Shown here: positions 778 to 6,728 of the stretch, one piece after another
Position numbering within the stretch: position 1 is the stretch's first letter
Layout of the letters: every line of letters starts with the position of its first letter
Origin: a virus
Reading direction: 5' to 3' (one strand)
DNA: 23,389 nt
Virus record (IMG/VR): IMGVR_UViG_3300035698_006629
Coordinates: 1-23,389 of that record
The notes under the pieces: model-generated
What the model saw: the letters and a program-made list of their open reading frames with translations, nothing else
Told to the model about the DNA's origin: nothing
Database searches by the model: none
Position numbers and translations under genes: made by a program

Positions 778-1159
778 GGGTAGTATCCTCTTTTTCTGGT
801 TCGCTTGCTACCGCCACCATACACTCGCGATACTGTGGCGGGTTAAGTCGGGTGTTCAAGACTTCATAAGGCTTGCCGCGCCACATTACCACGTCAGGGA
901 ACTCACGGGTATGGGGAATTTCAACAGCCTCTATCACAGCGGTAACGTCTTCATTCATAAGGTCTACCGTTATCCACGGCTTATGCTTATGTATATCGTA
1001 CCTGTTTTTTCTGGTGACGTTATCTACCTTTCCGCCGTCTGGGGTGCGGACTAGTAGGCGGCTAGACGTTACAGCAGGAAGGGGGCCGCTTTCGTGACCC
1101 CCGCCCTTGCTTTTTTTATCCTTGTTTTTCTTAGCCACCGAAGACCCGTTCGCCGCCAT
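749..1159 (-). CDS. Hypothetical basic/polar protein, about 136 aa
   Basis: The frame is open well upstream (to 1228), but the likely start is the ATG at 1159 or the GTG at 1138. Both overlap the end of the DUF2997 gene. The GTG start gives an N-terminus beginning VAKKNKDKKSKGGG. No convincing Shine-Dalgarno decides between them, so the start is uncertain. After the Lys-rich, presumably disordered N-terminus comes a compact region with VVMWRGKPYEVLNTRL and a short acidic/proline tail (PEKEDTTHEPTNPPTD). I do not recognise a family. Position suggests it is translated with the DUF2997 protein and the 163-aa gene that follows. Confidence 0.7.
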   Translation of the reverse strand: MAANGSSVAKKNKDKKSKGGGHESGPLPAVTSSRLLVRTPDGGKVDNVTRKNRYDIHKHKPWITVDLMNEDVTAVIEAVEIPHTREFPDVVMWRGKPYEVLNTRLNPPQYRECMVAVASEPEKEDTTHEPTNPPTD

Positions 1160-1328
1160 CCTTGTCGTCGCCAGCGCAGGCACCGACCATTTCGCGTAGA
1201 CGTTCGGTTGTGCCGAATAAGTCCTCAAAGGGCGCAGTGGCGTCTAGGCAGGTTCCGCCCTCATACCCTTGCGCTTCGACAGTAGTAGCCCCGTTGGGGT
1301 CGATATGAAGTAGAACTTTTTTAGCCAT
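1131..1328 (-). CDS. DUF2997-family small protein
   Basis: This 65-aa protein starts MAKKVLLHIDPNG and carries GYEGGTCLDATAPFEDLFG around residues 21-39. A short beta-strand start with an IDPxG turn followed by a G-x-x-C-L-x-A-T motif (Cys27) and a helix is what I know as the DUF2997 family. The ATG is preceded by AAGGA at 8-nt spacing. In bacteria this family is typically encoded next to a Ycf35/DUF1257 protein and a Ycf46-like AAA+ ATPase, and both are present nearby here (1663-2067 and 4161-6728). Its biochemical role is not established. The acidic and glycine-rich tail (DDKDGGERVFGG) is an extension I cannot assign. Confidence 0.8.
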   Translation of the reverse strand: MAKKVLLHIDPNGATTVEAQGYEGGTCLDATAPFEDLFGTTERLREMVGACAGDDKDGGERVFGG

Positions 1329-1342
1329 GGTGTATTTCCTTT

Positions 1343-1630
1343 TTATCGAATGGGGGGTCGCTCACTAGCACTACTAGGCCCGCCGTCAACGCGGACCTTG
1401 TCATGTTTCTTTTTACCGAGTTCCAATCTTTCGGCATCCAGCATTTCAAGACGTGGCACGTCGAAAAATCTAGGTTCAACGAATTTGTTGTCCCCGTCCA
1501 TTTTTGGCTGAACAAGCAGTTGTGCGCATCCAGTGATGAAGGCCGCAATGCCAGTGACGTGCCCCTCCATTCCGGTGATGGTATCCTTGACGTAAGCGCC
1601 AAGAGTAATGCCGTTGGTGTCGATTTTCAT
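1343..1630 (-). CDS. Conserved small phage-type protein, 95 aa
   Basis: The ATG at 1630 has AAGGA at 7-nt spacing, and a palindrome copy lies immediately upstream of that site. The sequence VKDTITGMEGHVTGIAAF, then TGCAQLLVQPK and FFDVPRLEML, matches a pattern I recognise from many small uncharacterised phage proteins: V-x-D-x-I-T-G-x-E-G, later G-C-x-Q-x-x-V-x-P, then a W/F-D-x-x-R-L/V motif. This supports the frame over the competing overlapping frame at 1321-1602. The stop precedes the DUF2997 ribosome binding site by only a few nucleotides, so the two genes are one unit. No biochemical function is known to me. Confidence 0.8.
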   Translation of the reverse strand: MKIDTNGITLGAYVKDTITGMEGHVTGIAAFITGCAQLLVQPKMDGDNKFVEPRFFDVPRLEMLDAERLELGKKKHDKVRVDGGPSSASERPPIR

Positions 1631-1644
1631 AGAGTTTCCTTCGC

Positions 1645-1658
1645 TGCAATCGATTGCA
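1645..1658. repeat. 14-bp palindromic repeat, copy 2
   Basis: Perfect TGCAATCGATTGCA, symmetric out to 16 bp (CTGCAATCGATTGCAG). It begins 4 nt past the stop codon of the Ycf35 gene and ends 14 nt before the next ATG, just upstream of its ribosome binding site. Confidence 0.95.
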
Positions 1659-1662
1659 GTAG

Positions 1663-2067
1663 TTAGTTGGCAGCTACCAGTTCGAGCGTTACCATGCCTT
1701 TTTCTCCCTCAATCCGCTGGGAGGACATACCGCGCTGTGCTGCTTCGTACTCGGCTTCCCGCAGCGCGTATTCCTGCAATAGCCCGCCGATATGGTTGGT
1801 AGCAAATGCGCCACGCAAGCACGTGTCCATCGTGTACGGATCGAACATAGGCGAGTAGCTTCCGTCATTGTTGCGGATAAGGCCAACATCGTGTTTGCCG
1901 GGTAGCACGATAGCTGCCTGACACTGGTTGGGTTGACCGTGATAGGTACGAAACTTGGTGGCGCTCTTGTCGAGGACGGCTTTACCCCCTGAGATTTCCA
2001 TAGCGACGGTGGCGAGAACGTCGAGGTCCCGTATCTTAACGCCGGATAGTTTAATATTGTGCGACAT
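1663..2067 (-). CDS. Ycf35-like protein (DUF1257)
   Basis: I chose the ATG at 2067 (134 aa) rather than the longer open frame to 2214, because GGGAG lies 7 nt upstream and the family characteristically begins MSH. The sequence starts MSHNIKLSGVKIRDLDVL, then gives CQAAIVLPGKHDVGLIRNNDG (residues 49-69), a YSPMFDPY segment, and LLQEYALREAEYEAAQRG (residues 96-113). It ends in a hydrophobic beta-strand (MVTLELVAAN). This order of an MSH start, an 'I-x-D' strand, a V-G-L/F strand and an LxQxYA helix is that of DUF1257/Ycf35, first named from plastid and cyanobacterial genomes. Family members often neighbour DUF2997 and a Ycf46-type AAA+ ATPase. A candidate promoter sits about 35 nt upstream. Function unknown. 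Confidence 0.8.
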   Translation of the reverse strand: MSHNIKLSGVKIRDLDVLATVAMEISGGKAVLDKSATKFRTYHGQPNQCQAAIVLPGKHDVGLIRNNDGSYSPMFDPYTMDTCLRGAFATNHIGGLLQEYALREAEYEAAQRGMSSQRIEGEKGMVTLELVAAN

Positions 2068-2100
2068 AGTCGGCTCCCGATAAGTTGTAAGTGTGAATGT

Positions 2101-2129
2101 AGTATATACGGTTAACAGTGTTTGCGCAA
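2101..2129 (-). promoter_or_regulatory. Candidate sigma-70-type promoter for the Ycf35 gene cluster
   Basis: On the minus strand, TTGCGC (2129-2124) and TATACT (2106-2101) are separated by 17 bp. The -10 matches the consensus at five of six positions; the -35 matches at three. It lies in the gap between the preceding gene's stop and the Ycf35 ATG. The same TTGCGC hexamer stands in front of the AAA+ gene promoter at 6754-6781. Confidence 0.5.
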
Positions 2130-2146
2130 TATAACGCTGCCGTACA

Positions 2147-2824
2147 TTATCTCGTTTTGATACGGCGAGTGCGTCGAATTCGAACCCGCGCCTGTCCTGT
2201 AGGGGTTTCGTCAACTACCGCTTTCGTCAGACTCTTAACCCGGCGTTCCAATTCCTGAGCATGGAAGTAGGGATTTTCTTGGGTAGGGTCAAGAATGTCT
2301 GATAGGTTATACTCTGACATATCCAAGCCTAGTTTATCCGCCCATATTGCGGGCGCACCCTTCGGTAGCTGAGAGTCCTTAGATATTATCTCAAACCTAC
2401 CTTGAAAGAATATGTAGGGCACCGCCGATAGCCTATGCGGTGGTAACTGTAACATGACCTGCCATAAAGGGGCGTTGTTATTACAAAGCAATAACAGATA
2501 CTCTATGTTCTCTTCGAAAGCTGAATTAACAGCACGGTGACGATATTCCAGAAGGATTTCCGTACCGGGTGCAACTTCGTGGCGGTTCTGGTGCCATGAC
2601 CCTGTGATGTTAGGGTGAAAGCTGGATGTGGCGGGAATAGTGGCAAACTGAGAAGTTTCCCTAAACCCTTTTACTTTGCGTTGGTACGCGGCAAACAGCG
2701 GGATAATCGTATTACCCTCTCCATCATTTTTTACGCGAACAAACGCTTGTACTGATACGTTTCGTTTGTCGCTGCCGTCACTTGCGCGTAGGCTGTCTTT
2801 GCCCGTGGTTAATTCGATAAAAAT
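2147..2824 (-). CDS. Hypothetical protein, 225 aa, apparently starting at ATT
   Basis: The frame that conventional start codons would open only at a TTG (2491) continues upstream without a stop for 111 more codons, with coherent protein sequence (for example VQAFVRVKNDGEGNT, SWHQNRHEVAPGTEILLEYR). There is no in-frame ATG, GTG or TTG in that extension. A perfect AAGGAGG at 2839-2833 sits 8 nt upstream of an in-frame ATT at 2824-2822, giving ATT-TTT-ATC-GAA. An in-frame TAG at 2866-2864 closes the frame upstream. The N-terminal half looks beta-rich. The C-terminus is strongly basic (RVRIRRTRRIKTR), suggesting nucleic-acid contact. I recognise no family. The alternative is a sequencing error that hid a normal start. 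Confidence 0.7.
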   Translation of the reverse strand: MFIELTTGKDSLRASDGSDKRNVSVQAFVRVKNDGEGNTIIPLFAAYQRKVKGFRETSQFATIPATSSFHPNITGSWHQNRHEVAPGTEILLEYRHRAVNSAFEENIEYLLLLCNNNAPLWQVMLQLPPHRLSAVPYIFFQGRFEIISKDSQLPKGAPAIWADKLGLDMSEYNLSDILDPTQENPYFHAQELERRVKSLTKAVVDETPTGQARVRIRRTRRIKTR

Positions 2825-2832
2825 GGTAACAC

Positions 2833-2839
2833 CCTCCTT
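2833..2839 (-). promoter_or_regulatory. Consensus ribosome binding site that defines the ATT start
   Basis: AAGGAGG on the minus strand, the best Shine-Dalgarno in the window. The only start-like codon at proper spacing (8 nt) is ATT. The GTG that directly abuts the site is too close and is in a frame that ends after seven codons. Confidence 0.75.
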
Positions 2840-2915
2840 GTATAGGCTTCGCGTATTGTACCGCTATAGTAGTTCCGCGTACTATAAAAAGGAAGAGTGT
2901 TTTTAATTACTCCGC

Positions 2916-2929
2916 AGCAATCGATTGCA
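2916..2929. repeat. 14-bp palindromic repeat, copy 3 (variant left end)
   Basis: AGCAATCGATTGCA; only the outermost left base departs from the consensus. It lies 3 nt past the stop of the collagen-like gene. A GCGGAG motif follows it on the minus strand, as after copy 11, but no start codon stands there. The rest of the roughly 110-nt gap is AT-rich, with only weak promoter-like hexamers. Confidence 0.92.
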
Positions 2930-2932
2930 ACG

Positions 2933-3721
2933 TCATACCATTCTGAAAAGTACGTTCGGGGAGCTACCAACGATACTCAGAGTGGTTGCTAGGTTGAAAG
3001 TGGTTGGTAAAGAACCCGGTGCAATTCCAGTAGGACGAAACATAGCTTCGCTTACTTGGCTATTGACATACGGAACACCGTAGCCGATCTGATTTTCTGG
3101 TACAAACGTATATACGTTTATGTTAGCACTAGCTACCGCACCTACGAAATACCGGGTATTAGCTAACAAGGTGTAGTCCCAAGTTTCTGTTAAATCGCCA
3201 GTGGAAGAGGCGTCTAACAGCGCGGTTTCTTTTACTATAGTAAGAGTTCCTATAGGGTCCTCTATTCCTACAAATAGTTGAATATCTACGTCCGAAATTC
3301 CTGTACTCACATAAAGCGCAATTTGGTCTACCTCAATATCTATCGGTGGAATGAATAAGGTAAAGGCAGGTCTATCTGTAAGTAGGGAGGATGCCGATAT
3401 GGGATCGACACCGCCGCTGGACACAATACCGGGTCCTACAAAGTTCCCAGTTTTTGTACCTGCAAGCTGTATGGTAGGTGCGTACAAACCGCCGCCGCCA
3501 CCGCCGCCCGACTGGTCTACCCATTCGGTATCGTTATCTGTGTCACTGGCCTTAGCTAGTACCTGTCCAGTAGTACCTCCCGCAGGAACGCCGAGGCCGT
3601 CCGCACCAGCAGCACCATTCGTACCGTTCGTACCATCTACGCCGTCCGCTCCGGGCGAGCCTTGTAAGATTTCTATTACAGTGCTTTCTTTTACCAGAAT
3701 TGTGACTGTGTTATTAGACAT
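2933..3721 (-). CDS. Collagen-like tail fibre or virion protein, 262 aa
   Basis: After a short N-terminal strand (MSNNTVTILVKESTVIEILQ) comes a collagen-like Gly-X-Y run at about residues 22-45 (GSPGADGVDGTNGTNGAAG). It is followed by TTGQVLAKASDTDNDTEWVD and a poly-Gly hinge (about residues 74-80). This Gly-X-Y plus 'TTGQVLxKxSxxDxDxxW' arrangement is common in phage fibre proteins, where it makes a trimeric shaft. The remaining 180 residues look beta-rich and would form the distal domain. The ATG overlaps the end of the preceding gene by 8 nt (ATGTCTAA), so the two are translationally coupled. It is probably an accessory fibre or receptor-contacting protein; the exact location in the virion is unknown. 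Confidence 0.8.
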   Translation of the reverse strand: MSNNTVTILVKESTVIEILQGSPGADGVDGTNGTNGAAGADGLGVPAGGTTGQVLAKASDTDNDTEWVDQSGGGGGGGLYAPTIQLAGTKTGNFVGPGIVSSGGVDPISASSLLTDRPAFTLFIPPIDIEVDQIALYVSTGISDVDIQLFVGIEDPIGTLTIVKETALLDASSTGDLTETWDYTLLANTRYFVGAVASANINVYTFVPENQIGYGVPYVNSQVSEAMFRPTGIAPGSLPTTFNLATTLSIVGSSPNVLFRMV

Positions 3722-4079
3722 TGGAGTTTATACCCTTCTCTACGACGACGCGCCCATGCAATATAGTAGTCTCTGTGGCTCCTATGATTTCTTCTAATTC
3801 ATATAGAAGTATTCTATTGGCAGGCAGTGTAAGAATTTCTTCGCGTGTTAGTGAAACGAGTATAGCGCCGTTCAGCGGCGTTACTGTAATCCCATACCCG
3901 ATAGTTTTACTGAGAAGAGTAGTTGCTCCGTCCTTAATGATGAAGGAATAGCTGCGTCCAGTGAGGTTGGCTACTATACCTGTAACGGCATCCTTCATAA
4001 CAGCATTTAGTCCAGCGGAGTTACCGACTATCCCGGTGTTACCATGCTTAACTTTTAGAGTGTAATTAGTAATCTGCAC
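3714..4079 (-). CDS. Probable virion beta-domain protein, 121 aa
   Basis: The start is a GTG at 4079 with an AGAAAGG site about 7 nt upstream. The protein is made of alternating hydrophobic strands (YSFIIKDGATTLLSKTIGYG, ITVTPLNGAILVSLTREEIL, RILLYELEEII, ILHGRVVVEKG). This layout resembles the small immunoglobulin-like or BppU-N-terminal-like domains that anchor fibres in phage baseplates. In that type, a T-F/S-F strand, an 'I-x-V/I-S-L-T' strand and a final 'x-G-x-V-x-V' strand occur in that order. I assign it by pattern only. It is coupled to the collagen-like gene downstream, which suggests an adaptor-fibre pair. Confidence 0.65.
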   Translation of the reverse strand: MQITNYTLKVKHGNTGIVGNSAGLNAVMKDAVTGIVANLTGRSYSFIIKDGATTLLSKTIGYGITVTPLNGAILVSLTREEILTLPANRILLYELEEIIGATETTILHGRVVVEKGINSNV

Positions 4080-4142
4080 GAGGAACCCTTTCTCTGTTTC
4101 GACGCAATTAGTACATCAAAAAAGGTTAAGTGTCTATCCCCG

Positions 4143-4156
4143 TGCAATCGATTGCA
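4143..4156. repeat. 14-bp palindromic repeat, copy 4
   Basis: Perfect TGCAATCGATTGCA, 4 nt past the stop of the AAA+ gene. A TTTTTT run follows about 20 nt later on the minus strand, but I see no stable stem just before it, so I do not call a terminator. Confidence 0.95.
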
Positions 4157-4160
4157 AGCA

Positions 4161-6728
4161 CTAGTCAGGGGTTTCGTCGTCCCGTGTTACCCGTGTACGA
4201 ACCCGCTTAGGTTTACGGCCCCGTATACCCTTTGCAAGGGGGGCAGCAGTCTCGGTAGAGGCTTCGGGCGATGACGCAGGCCGCGCATTGGTTTCCGCCC
4301 AAGAGCGCATCGCGCTAAACTCCGCTTCGCGGGTACGTGACATAGGTTTTAGATACCCCTTGGCTTCCTCTAGGTATTCGAAAGAGAGTCCCGGCTTGCC
4401 GCCCAAAGAGATTACGACGGCGTCCTCTATCATGGCTTCGATTTCCGCACCAACGAAACCCTCTGTAATACGCTTGGCTCCGGCCATGTCCTCTTTACTA
4501 AGCTGTTGTTTACGTTTTCTGGCATGAATTTCCACAATCTGCCCACGTTCGTCCCAGTTGGGCAGGGTAACGGACCAAATTTCATCGATACGCCCTTTGC
4601 GTAGTAACTCAGGTGGAAGACCTGTTACGCGGTTGGCCGTCATGATAAGAAACACGGGCCGGGAAGTTTGATTGCGTTCTTGCATCCACGTAAGGAATGT
4701 GCCGAATACTCGCTGAGTAGTACCGTGCCCGCCGTCTGACCCGCCGCCGTCGCCGCCCATACCCGCAAAGCCCTTGTCGATTTCGTCAAGCATGAGTACG
4801 CAAGGTGCCATAGCATCAATAAGACCTAGTACAGACCGCATAGACTGTTCCGATTGCCCGACATAGGCCCCGAATACACGACCTACGTCAAAGCGAATAA
4901 CTGGCAGGTTTAGAATGGAACCCGCAGCTTTGGCTACAAGAGATTTACCCGTATTGTGTGCAATGAACGTGTTCTCGCATACAAAGTTTGCGCAAGGTGA
5001 TGCGAGTTGCAAATCGTAGGTCCGTGCTACACGTCCGTTACCTACCGCTGTTACCGTCAGTTCGCGGGTATATTCGACATTGAGGTTTTCCATGTGCTGC
5101 GCACGGTGCGTTTCAAGATGCGCCGACTTTGTAAGAACCTCAAGATTTCCGATGTTATCGTTAAGCGTGTCTTCGTCCAAGTGATGAACGTCAAAGGCTG
5201 TAGATAAGACAGAACGGAACGGATGGTCAGGCGTGTTTTTAAGGTGGAACAAATATTCATCGTAAGTGAGTCCGTTCATACGCGCTTCTATTATAAGGCG
5301 GGCACGTTGCTGTCTTTTGTAGGTATAATCCCCCACATCGTCGTAAACGGTCTTACTCCAACCGCCATCGTAATATTTCAAACCTTCGATAACCACGCGC
5401 GGGCGGTTGATGCTTCGCCCTCCTTGGGATTGTGGTTTCATGGAACCACGGGAAAGAATAGTATCCCCCGTTTTTATATTCTTGGCTTGGGTGAAAGTGC
5501 CGTCGGCCATAAGGACGCTATCCTCGGCAGTAATACCGAGTTCCACGCCGTTGCTGACCGTAATGTCGATAACTTTCTTTTTGCCCGTAGCGTAGGCTCC
5601 GAGAACTTCATTGTAGAAAATAGCCCCGCTTTCGGCATCCCACGACTGAACGTAGGTAGGTTTTGTGGTATCCCACCCTTTGCTTCGCGCAACGGGATCG
5701 CCGTTGAATTTGGCAACAAAATCTTCGATGAGAATTTGCCGTGCAGAGTTTCGTTTTCCGCGCCGATAATGCAGGACCGTACCTGCGGCTTTGCATCCCG
5801 GAGGTCCTACGACTAAAGCACCACGGGAAGGCGTAACGCCTTGCGCTCTGGCTTCGTCCGTATAAGTAAGCTTGCGTTGGTGCATCCATGCTTTGAATAG
5901 ATCAAGCCCGCCGATTTCGTCCTCCGGTATTTGGGGCTGTAGTTCCAGTACGTTTGTCTTGCGTAGAAGTTGCGTTTTGTAATCCCGCAAACTGTTGAGA
6001 ATGTTGGGTACCCCAAAACCTTCGAGACCTTCGTTTTTTGCCCCGTATTCTGTGATCGCAAGAGCGCAAGCGGTTTCGAAAGAGTTTGCCGTCATGCCCT
6101 GTCCATTGGATAGGATAGAGGACCGCTGTTCATCGGTAAGCTTTGGCTTATCGTCATCGTCCAAGCTATCGAGAATATCGTCAAGAGACGTGCTGAGTTC
6201 ATTGCGACTAGGGTAGCCGAATTCGATAACGTGAGTTAGCGGCGCGATACTCTCCGGCAGTTCCGCAGTTTCGGGAACGATAAGGAATAGCCGTTGCTCG
6301 TTACTCAGTGATCGCTGTGCTTGTTTCCGTATACTGGTTTGTGTTTGCATTTCCCCGAATGAAAAGTAGAGGTCGAGCATTACGAAAAAACCCTTGTCGG
6401 GTAACTGCCCGCTGCTGAGTTGTTCGAATGCCTTACCAATAGCTGCCGATCCTTTGTCCGCATTTTGAGGCACAAGCGGGTCGAACGCTTCGGCGTGGGT
6501 ATCTTCGGGATCGATACGTTGAAATGTTTGCCATCCCTCCGCTGCGGTGTGCAGGCGGAAATCGATAGTCCCGGCCATGGCAAGGGCGTACACTTCGTCA
6601 ACGACCCGATAGACTTCGGTTATGGGGCAACGAATAGCTATGACGCCAATACTGGCATCTGTGGCTATCGTTAGTTCCTGCGCAAGCTTATCGCTGGCAG
6701 TTATTTCGGGTGAGTTAGTCATAGGCAT
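4161..6728 (-). CDS. Ycf46-like AAA+ ATPase interrupted by an intein
   Basis: The 855-residue frame has an N-terminal non-ATPase domain (about 1-260). Its pattern (GFFVMLDLYFSFGE, residues 113-126; RLFLIVPETAELPESI, residues 146-161) matches the Ycf46 family. The AAA+ core follows. The Walker A motif GPPG/TGKS is split: GPPG is residues 308-311 and TGKS residues 593-596, with the intein between. Walker B is VLMLDEIDK (644-652), sensor-1 is in IMTANR (Asn699), and LRKGRIDEIW (709-718) carries the likely arginine finger. The mature host protein would be about 574 aa, which suits the family. The C-terminus is basic (GRKPKRVRTRVTR). CGGAG precedes the ATG at 6728, although the spacing would also allow the second ATG at 6722. 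A good promoter lies just upstream. Without splicing the P-loop is destroyed, so activity should depend on it. The substrate is unknown. Confidence 0.85.
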   Translation of the reverse strand: MPMTNSPEITASDKLAQELTIATDASIGVIAIRCPITEVYRVVDEVYALAMAGTIDFRLHTAAEGWQTFQRIDPEDTHAEAFDPLVPQNADKGSAAIGKAFEQLSSGQLPDKGFFVMLDLYFSFGEMQTQTSIRKQAQRSLSNEQRLFLIVPETAELPESIAPLTHVIEFGYPSRNELSTSLDDILDSLDDDDKPKLTDEQRSSILSNGQGMTANSFETACALAITEYGAKNEGLEGFGVPNILNSLRDYKTQLLRKTNVLELQPQIPEDEIGGLDLFKAWMHQRKLTYTDEARAQGVTPSRGALVVGPPGCKAAGTVLHYRRGKRNSARQILIEDFVAKFNGDPVARSKGWDTTKPTYVQSWDAESGAIFYNEVLGAYATGKKKVIDITVSNGVELGITAEDSVLMADGTFTQAKNIKTGDTILSRGSMKPQSQGGRSINRPRVVIEGLKYYDGGWSKTVYDDVGDYTYKRQQRARLIIEARMNGLTYDEYLFHLKNTPDHPFRSVLSTAFDVHHLDEDTLNDNIGNLEVLTKSAHLETHRAQHMENLNVEYTRELTVTAVGNGRVARTYDLQLASPCANFVCENTFIAHNTGKSLVAKAAGSILNLPVIRFDVGRVFGAYVGQSEQSMRSVLGLIDAMAPCVLMLDEIDKGFAGMGGDGGGSDGGHGTTQRVFGTFLTWMQERNQTSRPVFLIMTANRVTGLPPELLRKGRIDEIWSVTLPNWDERGQIVEIHARKRKQQLSKEDMAGAKRITEGFVGAEIEAMIEDAVVISLGGKPGLSFEYLEEAKGYLKPMSRTREAEFSAMRSWAETNARPASSPEASTETAAPLAKGIRGRKPKRVRTRVTRDDETPD
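4953..5795 (-). other. Intein with HNH endonuclease domain, 281 residues
   Basis: The intein runs from Cys312 to Asn592 of the host frame. The N-terminal block begins CKAAGTVLHYRRG. A block-B-like segment (TAEDSVLMADGTF, from residue 400) is followed by NIKTGDTI. Block F/G ends YDLQLASPCANFVCENTFIAHN in two overlapping stretches, with penultimate His591 and terminal Asn592; the +1 extein residue is Thr593. Between the splicing blocks, DVHHLDEDTLNDNIGNLEVL (513-532) and a later His537 form an HNH nuclease motif, the usual homing endonuclease of such elements. The block-B Thr-x-x-His is here Thr-Ala-Glu-Asp, so the conserved His is missing. Insertion in the most conserved ATP-binding loop is a classic homing site. 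Confidence 0.9.

Follow-up and report, generated by a model that had tools for sequence, protein, structure and literature searches.

Introduction

Ycf46 proteins of the slr0374 type, found in cyanobacteria, plastids and other bacteria, are ATPases of about 500-580 amino acids (aa) in which a degenerate AAA-like N-terminal domain precedes an active AAA domain; they carry the signatures FGTFLTWMQE and LPPELLRKGR, and genes for DUF1257 and DUF2997 proteins adjoin theirs. In cyanobacteria, the DUF2997-ycf35 (DUF1257) pair lies next to the ferredoxin gene fed7, in a cluster for which no ATPase is listed (PMC4284462). When Ycf46 (slr0374) is lost, the carbonic anhydrase EcaB is less active, and iron, sulfur and oxidative stress all elicit a response from the slr0374 operon (PMC7496141). 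Both Ycf46 and its partner proteins occur widely, the literature we found gives them no biochemical role, and we found no paper on a Ycf46 set in phages. Here we describe such a set in the IMG/VR virus record IMGVR_UViG_3300035698_006629, analyzed over its whole length of 23,389 bases (the window) and apparently a fragment of a siphophage genome.

The phage set shares with the cellular systems the ATPase architecture, both signatures and the neighboring DUF1257 and DUF2997 genes. It differs from the slr0374 type in that its ATPases form a separate clade (99% support), a further gene, here called B, stands between those for the ATPase and DUF1257, a radical-SAM neighbor is missing, and two members carry an intein in the Walker A motif; from the fed7 cluster it differs in having B and no ferredoxin partner. 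The reading that we favor, and hold to be probably correct, is that these genes encode a phage form of the Ycf46 system, in which an AAA+ protein-remodeling ring would work with a DUF1257-DUF2997 partner complex and with B as a probable adaptor or substrate, and would be active once its intein has been spliced out.

The four proteins of the module

The original prediction had proposed, from the window alone, that a Ycf46-like ATPase, a Ycf35/DUF1257 protein and a DUF2997 protein are encoded together, and profile searches with the three proteins returned each of these families. The ATPase gene (4161-6728, minus strand) is an open reading frame (ORF) of 855 aa with a Pfam AAA match at 5e-23. Without its intein, the full protein matches a hidden Markov model (HMM) built from bacterial loci only at 4e-123, the N-terminal domain alone does so at 1e-19, and phage and bacterial N-domains, compared profile to profile (hhalign), match with a probability of 99.9% (E 9e-34), which places the N-terminus in this family and not in another AAA+ family. 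Phage sequences served as seeds for the bacterial HMMs, yet the typical bacterial members have strong matches to Pfam DUF1257 and DUF2997. No curated Ycf46 model appeared among the Pfam or NCBIfam matches, those of cyanobacterial members included, and the label is given by the size and DUF1257 neighbor of the cyanobacterial members. In hhalign, the N-domain is alignable to the AAA core that follows it in these proteins (E 8e-6 to 4e-5), which marks it as a degenerate AAA-like domain. The N-terminal extein (aa 1-311, 5796-6728; phrog_8638, 1e-115) comprises this domain and the first part of the active AAA domain, ending with the GPPG of Walker A, and the C-terminal extein (4161-4952; PF00004, 5e-23) supplies the remaining Walker A residues, Walker B (DEID), the sensor 1 asparagine, the two arginines of the second region of homology (SRH) and the lid. 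All of these catalytic motifs are thus present after intein removal, and in an alignment of 165 sequences Walker A, Walker B, sensor 1 and the SRH arginines are invariant or nearly so among the phage members.

The two small partners were likewise assigned correctly, DUF1257 on the strength of the bacteria-only HMM. The DUF2997 protein (65 aa, 1131-1328, minus strand), with its conserved GxxC motif, matches PF11211 at 6e-8, above the cut-off (32.9 versus 24.1 bits), and the bacteria-only HMM at 5.5e-10. The DUF1257 protein (134 aa, 1663-2067, minus strand) falls just under the cut-off of PF06868 (2.4e-4; 21.7 versus 22.2 bits) and matches the bacteria-only HMM at 1.5e-12; its relatives score 24.3 to 36.8 bits, and those from loci L003, L006 and L009 exceed the Pfam cut-off. 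Its structure model is a confident alpha/beta fold (pLDDT 92) whose best structural match (Z 5.5) lies below the level of trust, and neither the DUF1257 nor the DUF2997 profile matched a solved structure. In three loci, one from Clostridium and two on viral contigs (L084, L110 and L124), DUF1257 and DUF2997 are fused in one ORF; because they are there a single protein, this suggests that the two may bind each other.

Protein B (225 aa, 2147-2824, minus strand) begins at an ATT codon preceded by the Shine-Dalgarno sequence AAGGAGG and aligns to its homologues from their first residues. A separate 114-aa gene at 2147-2491 was considered and dropped, as the frame runs upstream to the ATT start and aligns there to the first residues of the B homologues. 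No Pfam or PHROG family matched B. Its AlphaFold2 model is all-beta (pLDDT 80.8, pTM 0.76), and in most members the alignment indicates a basic, poorly ordered C-terminal tail. No PDB entry matched the fold with E < 0.001 (best Z 3.9), the arrangement being Ig-like at most, and the BFVD gave two clear matches only, the homologue from phage SM1, as the second-best viral match, and a protein of an uncultured phage. Weak or rare start codons recur in the module: B has ATT in the window (2822-2824) and TTG in L008 (4920) and L009 (9820), and DUF1257 of Rhodobacter phage RcKickapoo begins at an ATC (L002:12102), the GenBank start lying six codons downstream.

The module in other phages

B is the gene between those for the ATPase and DUF1257 in Rhodobacter phage RcKickapoo, Rhizobium phage L338C, Agrobacterium phage JP1, Aeromonas phage HJ05, Pseudomonas phage FBPa45 and three IMG/VR contigs. 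When IMG/VR was scanned with the ATPase alignment, the number of viral loci with B rose to 20, and every one of them has DUF1257 and DUF2997 on the same strand and the order ATPase-B-DUF1257-DUF2997. A survey of phages for the same set, which the original prediction had called for, has thus recovered it in a fixed four-gene form. Measured against the ATPase, DUF1257 lies on the same strand 97 times, DUF2997 87 times and B 23 times, and none was found on the opposite strand. B itself was seen in viral DNA only; it was found in none of the 80 Ycf46-like loci from bacteria or archaea. The ATPases of B-carrying phages group together in a tree of 165 ATPase sequences, in one clade of 21 members (99% support in the Shimodaira-Hasegawa-like approximate likelihood ratio test, SH-aLRT); L106, the one member without a match to the B HMM, carries a B-like ORF in the corresponding position. 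The phages of the phrog_8638 ATPases (a family of unknown function), namely Rhizobium phage L338C, the Rhodobacter RcTiptonus cluster and the Pseudomonas SM1 group, have the same family and the same gene order, and they differ from the window in having an uninterrupted Walker A and no tail-fiber-like gene between ATPase and B.

The additional small proteins, which had been suggested as parts of the same system, fared unequally. The 225-aa protein, our B, is a consistent partner, whereas those of 95, 136 and 163 aa are inconstant: the 163-aa protein and the one preceding it (called 136 aa) recur in only the closest of four relatives compared (L009), and the 95-aa protein (1343-1630, minus strand, between DUF1257 and DUF2997; phrog_16275, 2e-15) in one relative, L010, where it is placed downstream of DUF2997, so that it is probably not a core member. 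Separately, a small gene follows DUF2997 in about 16 phage loci (for example L003:12428-12796 and L002:13587-13934; phrog_38408 in L338C), with a similar-looking gene in five others. The gene is a possible fifth member of the module; in the window it would fall past the left end, where the record is truncated and genes downstream of the module are cut off.

Although the set had been placed in a phage accessory region, in well-sampled relatives it occupies a steady position between lysis or tail genes and replication genes, with helix-turn-helix (HTH), helicase and polymerase genes just after it. This position bears on the proposal that the genes form a counter-defense or exclusion module, whose ATPase would disassemble a host defense complex or block a competing phage. 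The AAA core is distantly similar to that of the anti-phage ATPase IetA, and accessory roles are common among phage AAA+ proteins. The similarity, however, concerns the general AAA core only and is weaker than that to CDC48-type models, PADLOC has no match for B, DUF1257 or DUF2997, and a location before the replication genes that stays the same across phages of several host genera points to a core function; we therefore regard this proposal as distinctly improbable. IetAS itself was rejected as an identity for the locus, for the ATPase scores 38.6 bits against the IetA cut-off of 510, the scanned partners lack a PADLOC match, and partners, N-domain and context all differ.

An intein in the Walker A motif

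The ATPase gene had been taken to encode one continuous protein of 855 aa; the family assignment stands, but the chain is interrupted. Residues 312-592 (281 aa; 4953-5795, minus strand) are inserted within Walker A, as GPPG|CKAAGT...FIAHN|TGKS, and compared with the intein-free gene of L009 the DNA junctions are those of an exact, in-frame insertion. Scanned alone, the insert matches Intein_splicing (PF14890, 37.0 bits against a cut-off of 35.8) and HNH_3 (PF13392, 25.0 against 24.8; 5118-5195, minus strand), and the VHH...N...H motif of the latter is kept. By its splicing profile, first residue (Cys, C1), terminal H280-N281 and +1 nucleophile (Thr) it is, to judge from these residues, a class 1-like intein with an HNH endonuclease, one that lacks the TxxH motif.

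A second copy, of 280 aa and 58.6% identity, sits at the identical site in the IMG/VR contig L008, whose exteins are 58.5% identical to those of the window and whose HNH motif is also intact; in every other ATPase of the set Walker A is uninterrupted. L008 is the only relative of the intein in IMG/VR, none was found in 50,697 GenBank phage records, and we found no report of an intein in a Ycf46-like protein. Inteins inside the P-loops of ATPases are otherwise known from mycobacteriophage terminases and archaeal MCM/CDC21 (PMC5050341, PMC6801210). These, too, are self-splicing domains with an optional homing endonuclease. The terminase intein TerL1-a is inserted between Lys and Thr of the loop, whereas the one described here lies between GPPG and TGKS; it further differs from the known P-loop inteins in its Ycf46-like AAA+ host protein, its HNH domain and the change of TxxH to TxxD.

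It is conceivable that the insertion inactivated the enzyme and that the neighboring genes are remnants. The Walker A of the precursor is indeed split and the TxxH histidine replaced, but the 855-aa frame is open, both copies retain C1, the terminal HN and Thr+1, and the neighboring genes are intact. Nonsynonymous divergence between the two inteins is 0.39 (dN) with synonymous divergence (dS) saturated, which indicates purifying selection on the intein, and the exteins are under purifying selection as well. A dead ATPase is thus very unlikely. Under the reading that we favor, in which the enzyme is functional, the anatomy implies that it would have to be spliced to 574 aa before it could bind ATP: in the 855-aa precursor the ATP-binding loop is divided, and protein splicing, expected from the conserved residues, would rejoin GPPG to TGKS. 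The HNH domain could meanwhile cut intein-free copies of the gene in co-infecting phages and so allow the intein to spread. A more speculative, and rather unlikely, extension is that the intein acts as a switch that keeps the ATPase off until conditions in the cell permit splicing, such that a selfish element would control when the module works, and that in this clade a stress-related bacterial Ycf46 system has been re-tooled with B into a dedicated infection machine. The locus offers a natural example of a predicted AAA+ ring whose ATP-binding loop would need splicing before it can function.

Linkage and neighbors in bacteria

That the three families travel together in bacteria, as the original prediction had stated, is borne out from two directions. 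Among the 80 bacterial or archaeal Ycf46-like loci, DUF1257 or DUF2997 lies nearby in 66, both are detectable in 24, and none is on the opposite strand. Because these loci had been picked by ATPase similarity, a reverse test was made from DUF2997, which is present in 33 of 141 Myxococcota genomes: all 30 Myxococcota loci centered on it (29 new ones and the centre genome) have DUF1257 and the ATPase within about 1.7 kb and on the same strand. A corresponding sample of Bacillota contained DUF2997 in 2 of 199, too few for a linkage test. The view that the genes in the window are chance neighbors in an accessory region rather than one system could appeal to the two unrelated genes and the 95-aa gene interspersed among the four; it is contradicted by these 30 reciprocal loci, by the identical order in the 20 phage loci, by the absence of any opposite-strand match and by the gene fusions, and we consider it excluded.

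Bacterial neighbors suggest a different function. A same-strand gene of the radical-SAM type (Fer4_12) lies within about 8 kb in 39 of the 80 loci and on the opposite strand in none. Together with the adjoining fed7 (PMC4284462) and with the EcaB and stress phenotypes of slr0374 (PMC7496141), this would fit a module for redox or cofactor maturation, acquired from bacteria, that assembles or repairs an Fe-S or radical enzyme and serves the phage as a metabolic booster. For the phage set, nevertheless, we find this unlikely, if the most serious of the competing explanations: of 10 phage records that carry the B version, nine are free of Fer4_12 matches over their whole length, and B is absent from the bacterial sets. 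As a separate observation, a larger protein without a Pfam family occupies the expected place of DUF1257 in some operons of Bacillota, Gastranaerophilales and Actinomycetota (L026:9396-10658, L030:9653-10402 and L016:9258-9698), where it adjoins HHH/GYF proteins and a radical-SAM gene.

DUF2997 was absent from 13 of 14 control genomes (E. coli and Caulobacter among them), Synechococcus being the only carrier. Judged by these control genomes, proteobacterial phages therefore seem to bring in a system missing from many of their hosts.

A model for the phage module

The original idea of a ring ATPase acting with small partners agrees with the families, motifs and linkage described above, while its remodeling activity is a prediction from sequence. 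In our model, the ATPase, with its degenerate first and active second AAA domain, would form a ring that pulls on proteins, which is the natural reading given that its catalytic motifs are complete and that its two-domain layout resembles that of CDC48-type unfoldases. DUF1257 and DUF2997 would form a small partner complex bound to the ATPase, and B would serve as a phage-specific, all-beta substrate adaptor or be itself the substrate. The target may lie in phage replication or host takeover, as the module stands constantly just before HTH, helicase and polymerase genes.

Several observations weigh against this model. First, the pore-loop position expected to be aromatic is only partly so in phage ATPases (L 45, Y 20 and F 20%). 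Second, neither B (best Z 3.9) nor DUF1257 (best Z 5.5) matched a known adaptor fold. Third, the block B TxxH histidine is replaced by Asp in both inteins (TAED in the window, TPED in L008), which makes the efficiency of splicing uncertain. Finally, DUF1257 and DUF2997 were not detected with another viral clade, which comprises 31 Ycf46-like ATPases, that of Mycobacterium phage Catdawg among them; the partners are thus not always needed, and not every phage Ycf46-like protein comes with the set. Downstream of the ATPase, this clade (most of L116-L170, plus L007) conserves two other genes, one in 29 loci and one in 26, and it may represent a separate phage system that makes use of the same ATPase.

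For a system as widespread as this, the compact versions in culturable Rhodobacter, Rhizobium, Agrobacterium and Pseudomonas phages present the whole set in small, genetically tractable genomes, and protein B and the DUF1257-DUF2997 fusions point to likely binding partners.

Other features of the window

The ATPase, DUF1257 and DUF2997 genes lie in the left part of the window and span about 5.6 kb of the minus strand, with other genes interspersed; the arrangement is tighter in relatives, and in L002 and L008-L010 no more than about 10-120 bases separate the ATPase from B. Here the two are split by a gene of 121 aa and one of 262 aa that is collagen-like (GXY) and tail-fiber-like (2933-3721), which together occupy 2933-4079 on the minus strand, are not part of the module and do not separate ATPase from B in the relatives. 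The right side of the window contains a tape-measure-like gene and further tail genes, all on the minus strand. A search of the window for RNA families found none. There are 11 copies of the palindrome GCAATCGATTGC (or GCAATCGATTGT) in the window, against an expectation of 0.78, mostly between genes and just upstream of starts, the first bases of the 12-mers being at 151, 1646, 2917, 4144, 7091, 8742, 10751, 12398, 16963, 18144 and 20508. It was not seen in L003-L006 or L010, and it recurs in RcKickapoo (nine cores in 19.6 kb), L008 (eight) and L009 (six); it has the look of a DNA operator particular to this subgroup of phages.

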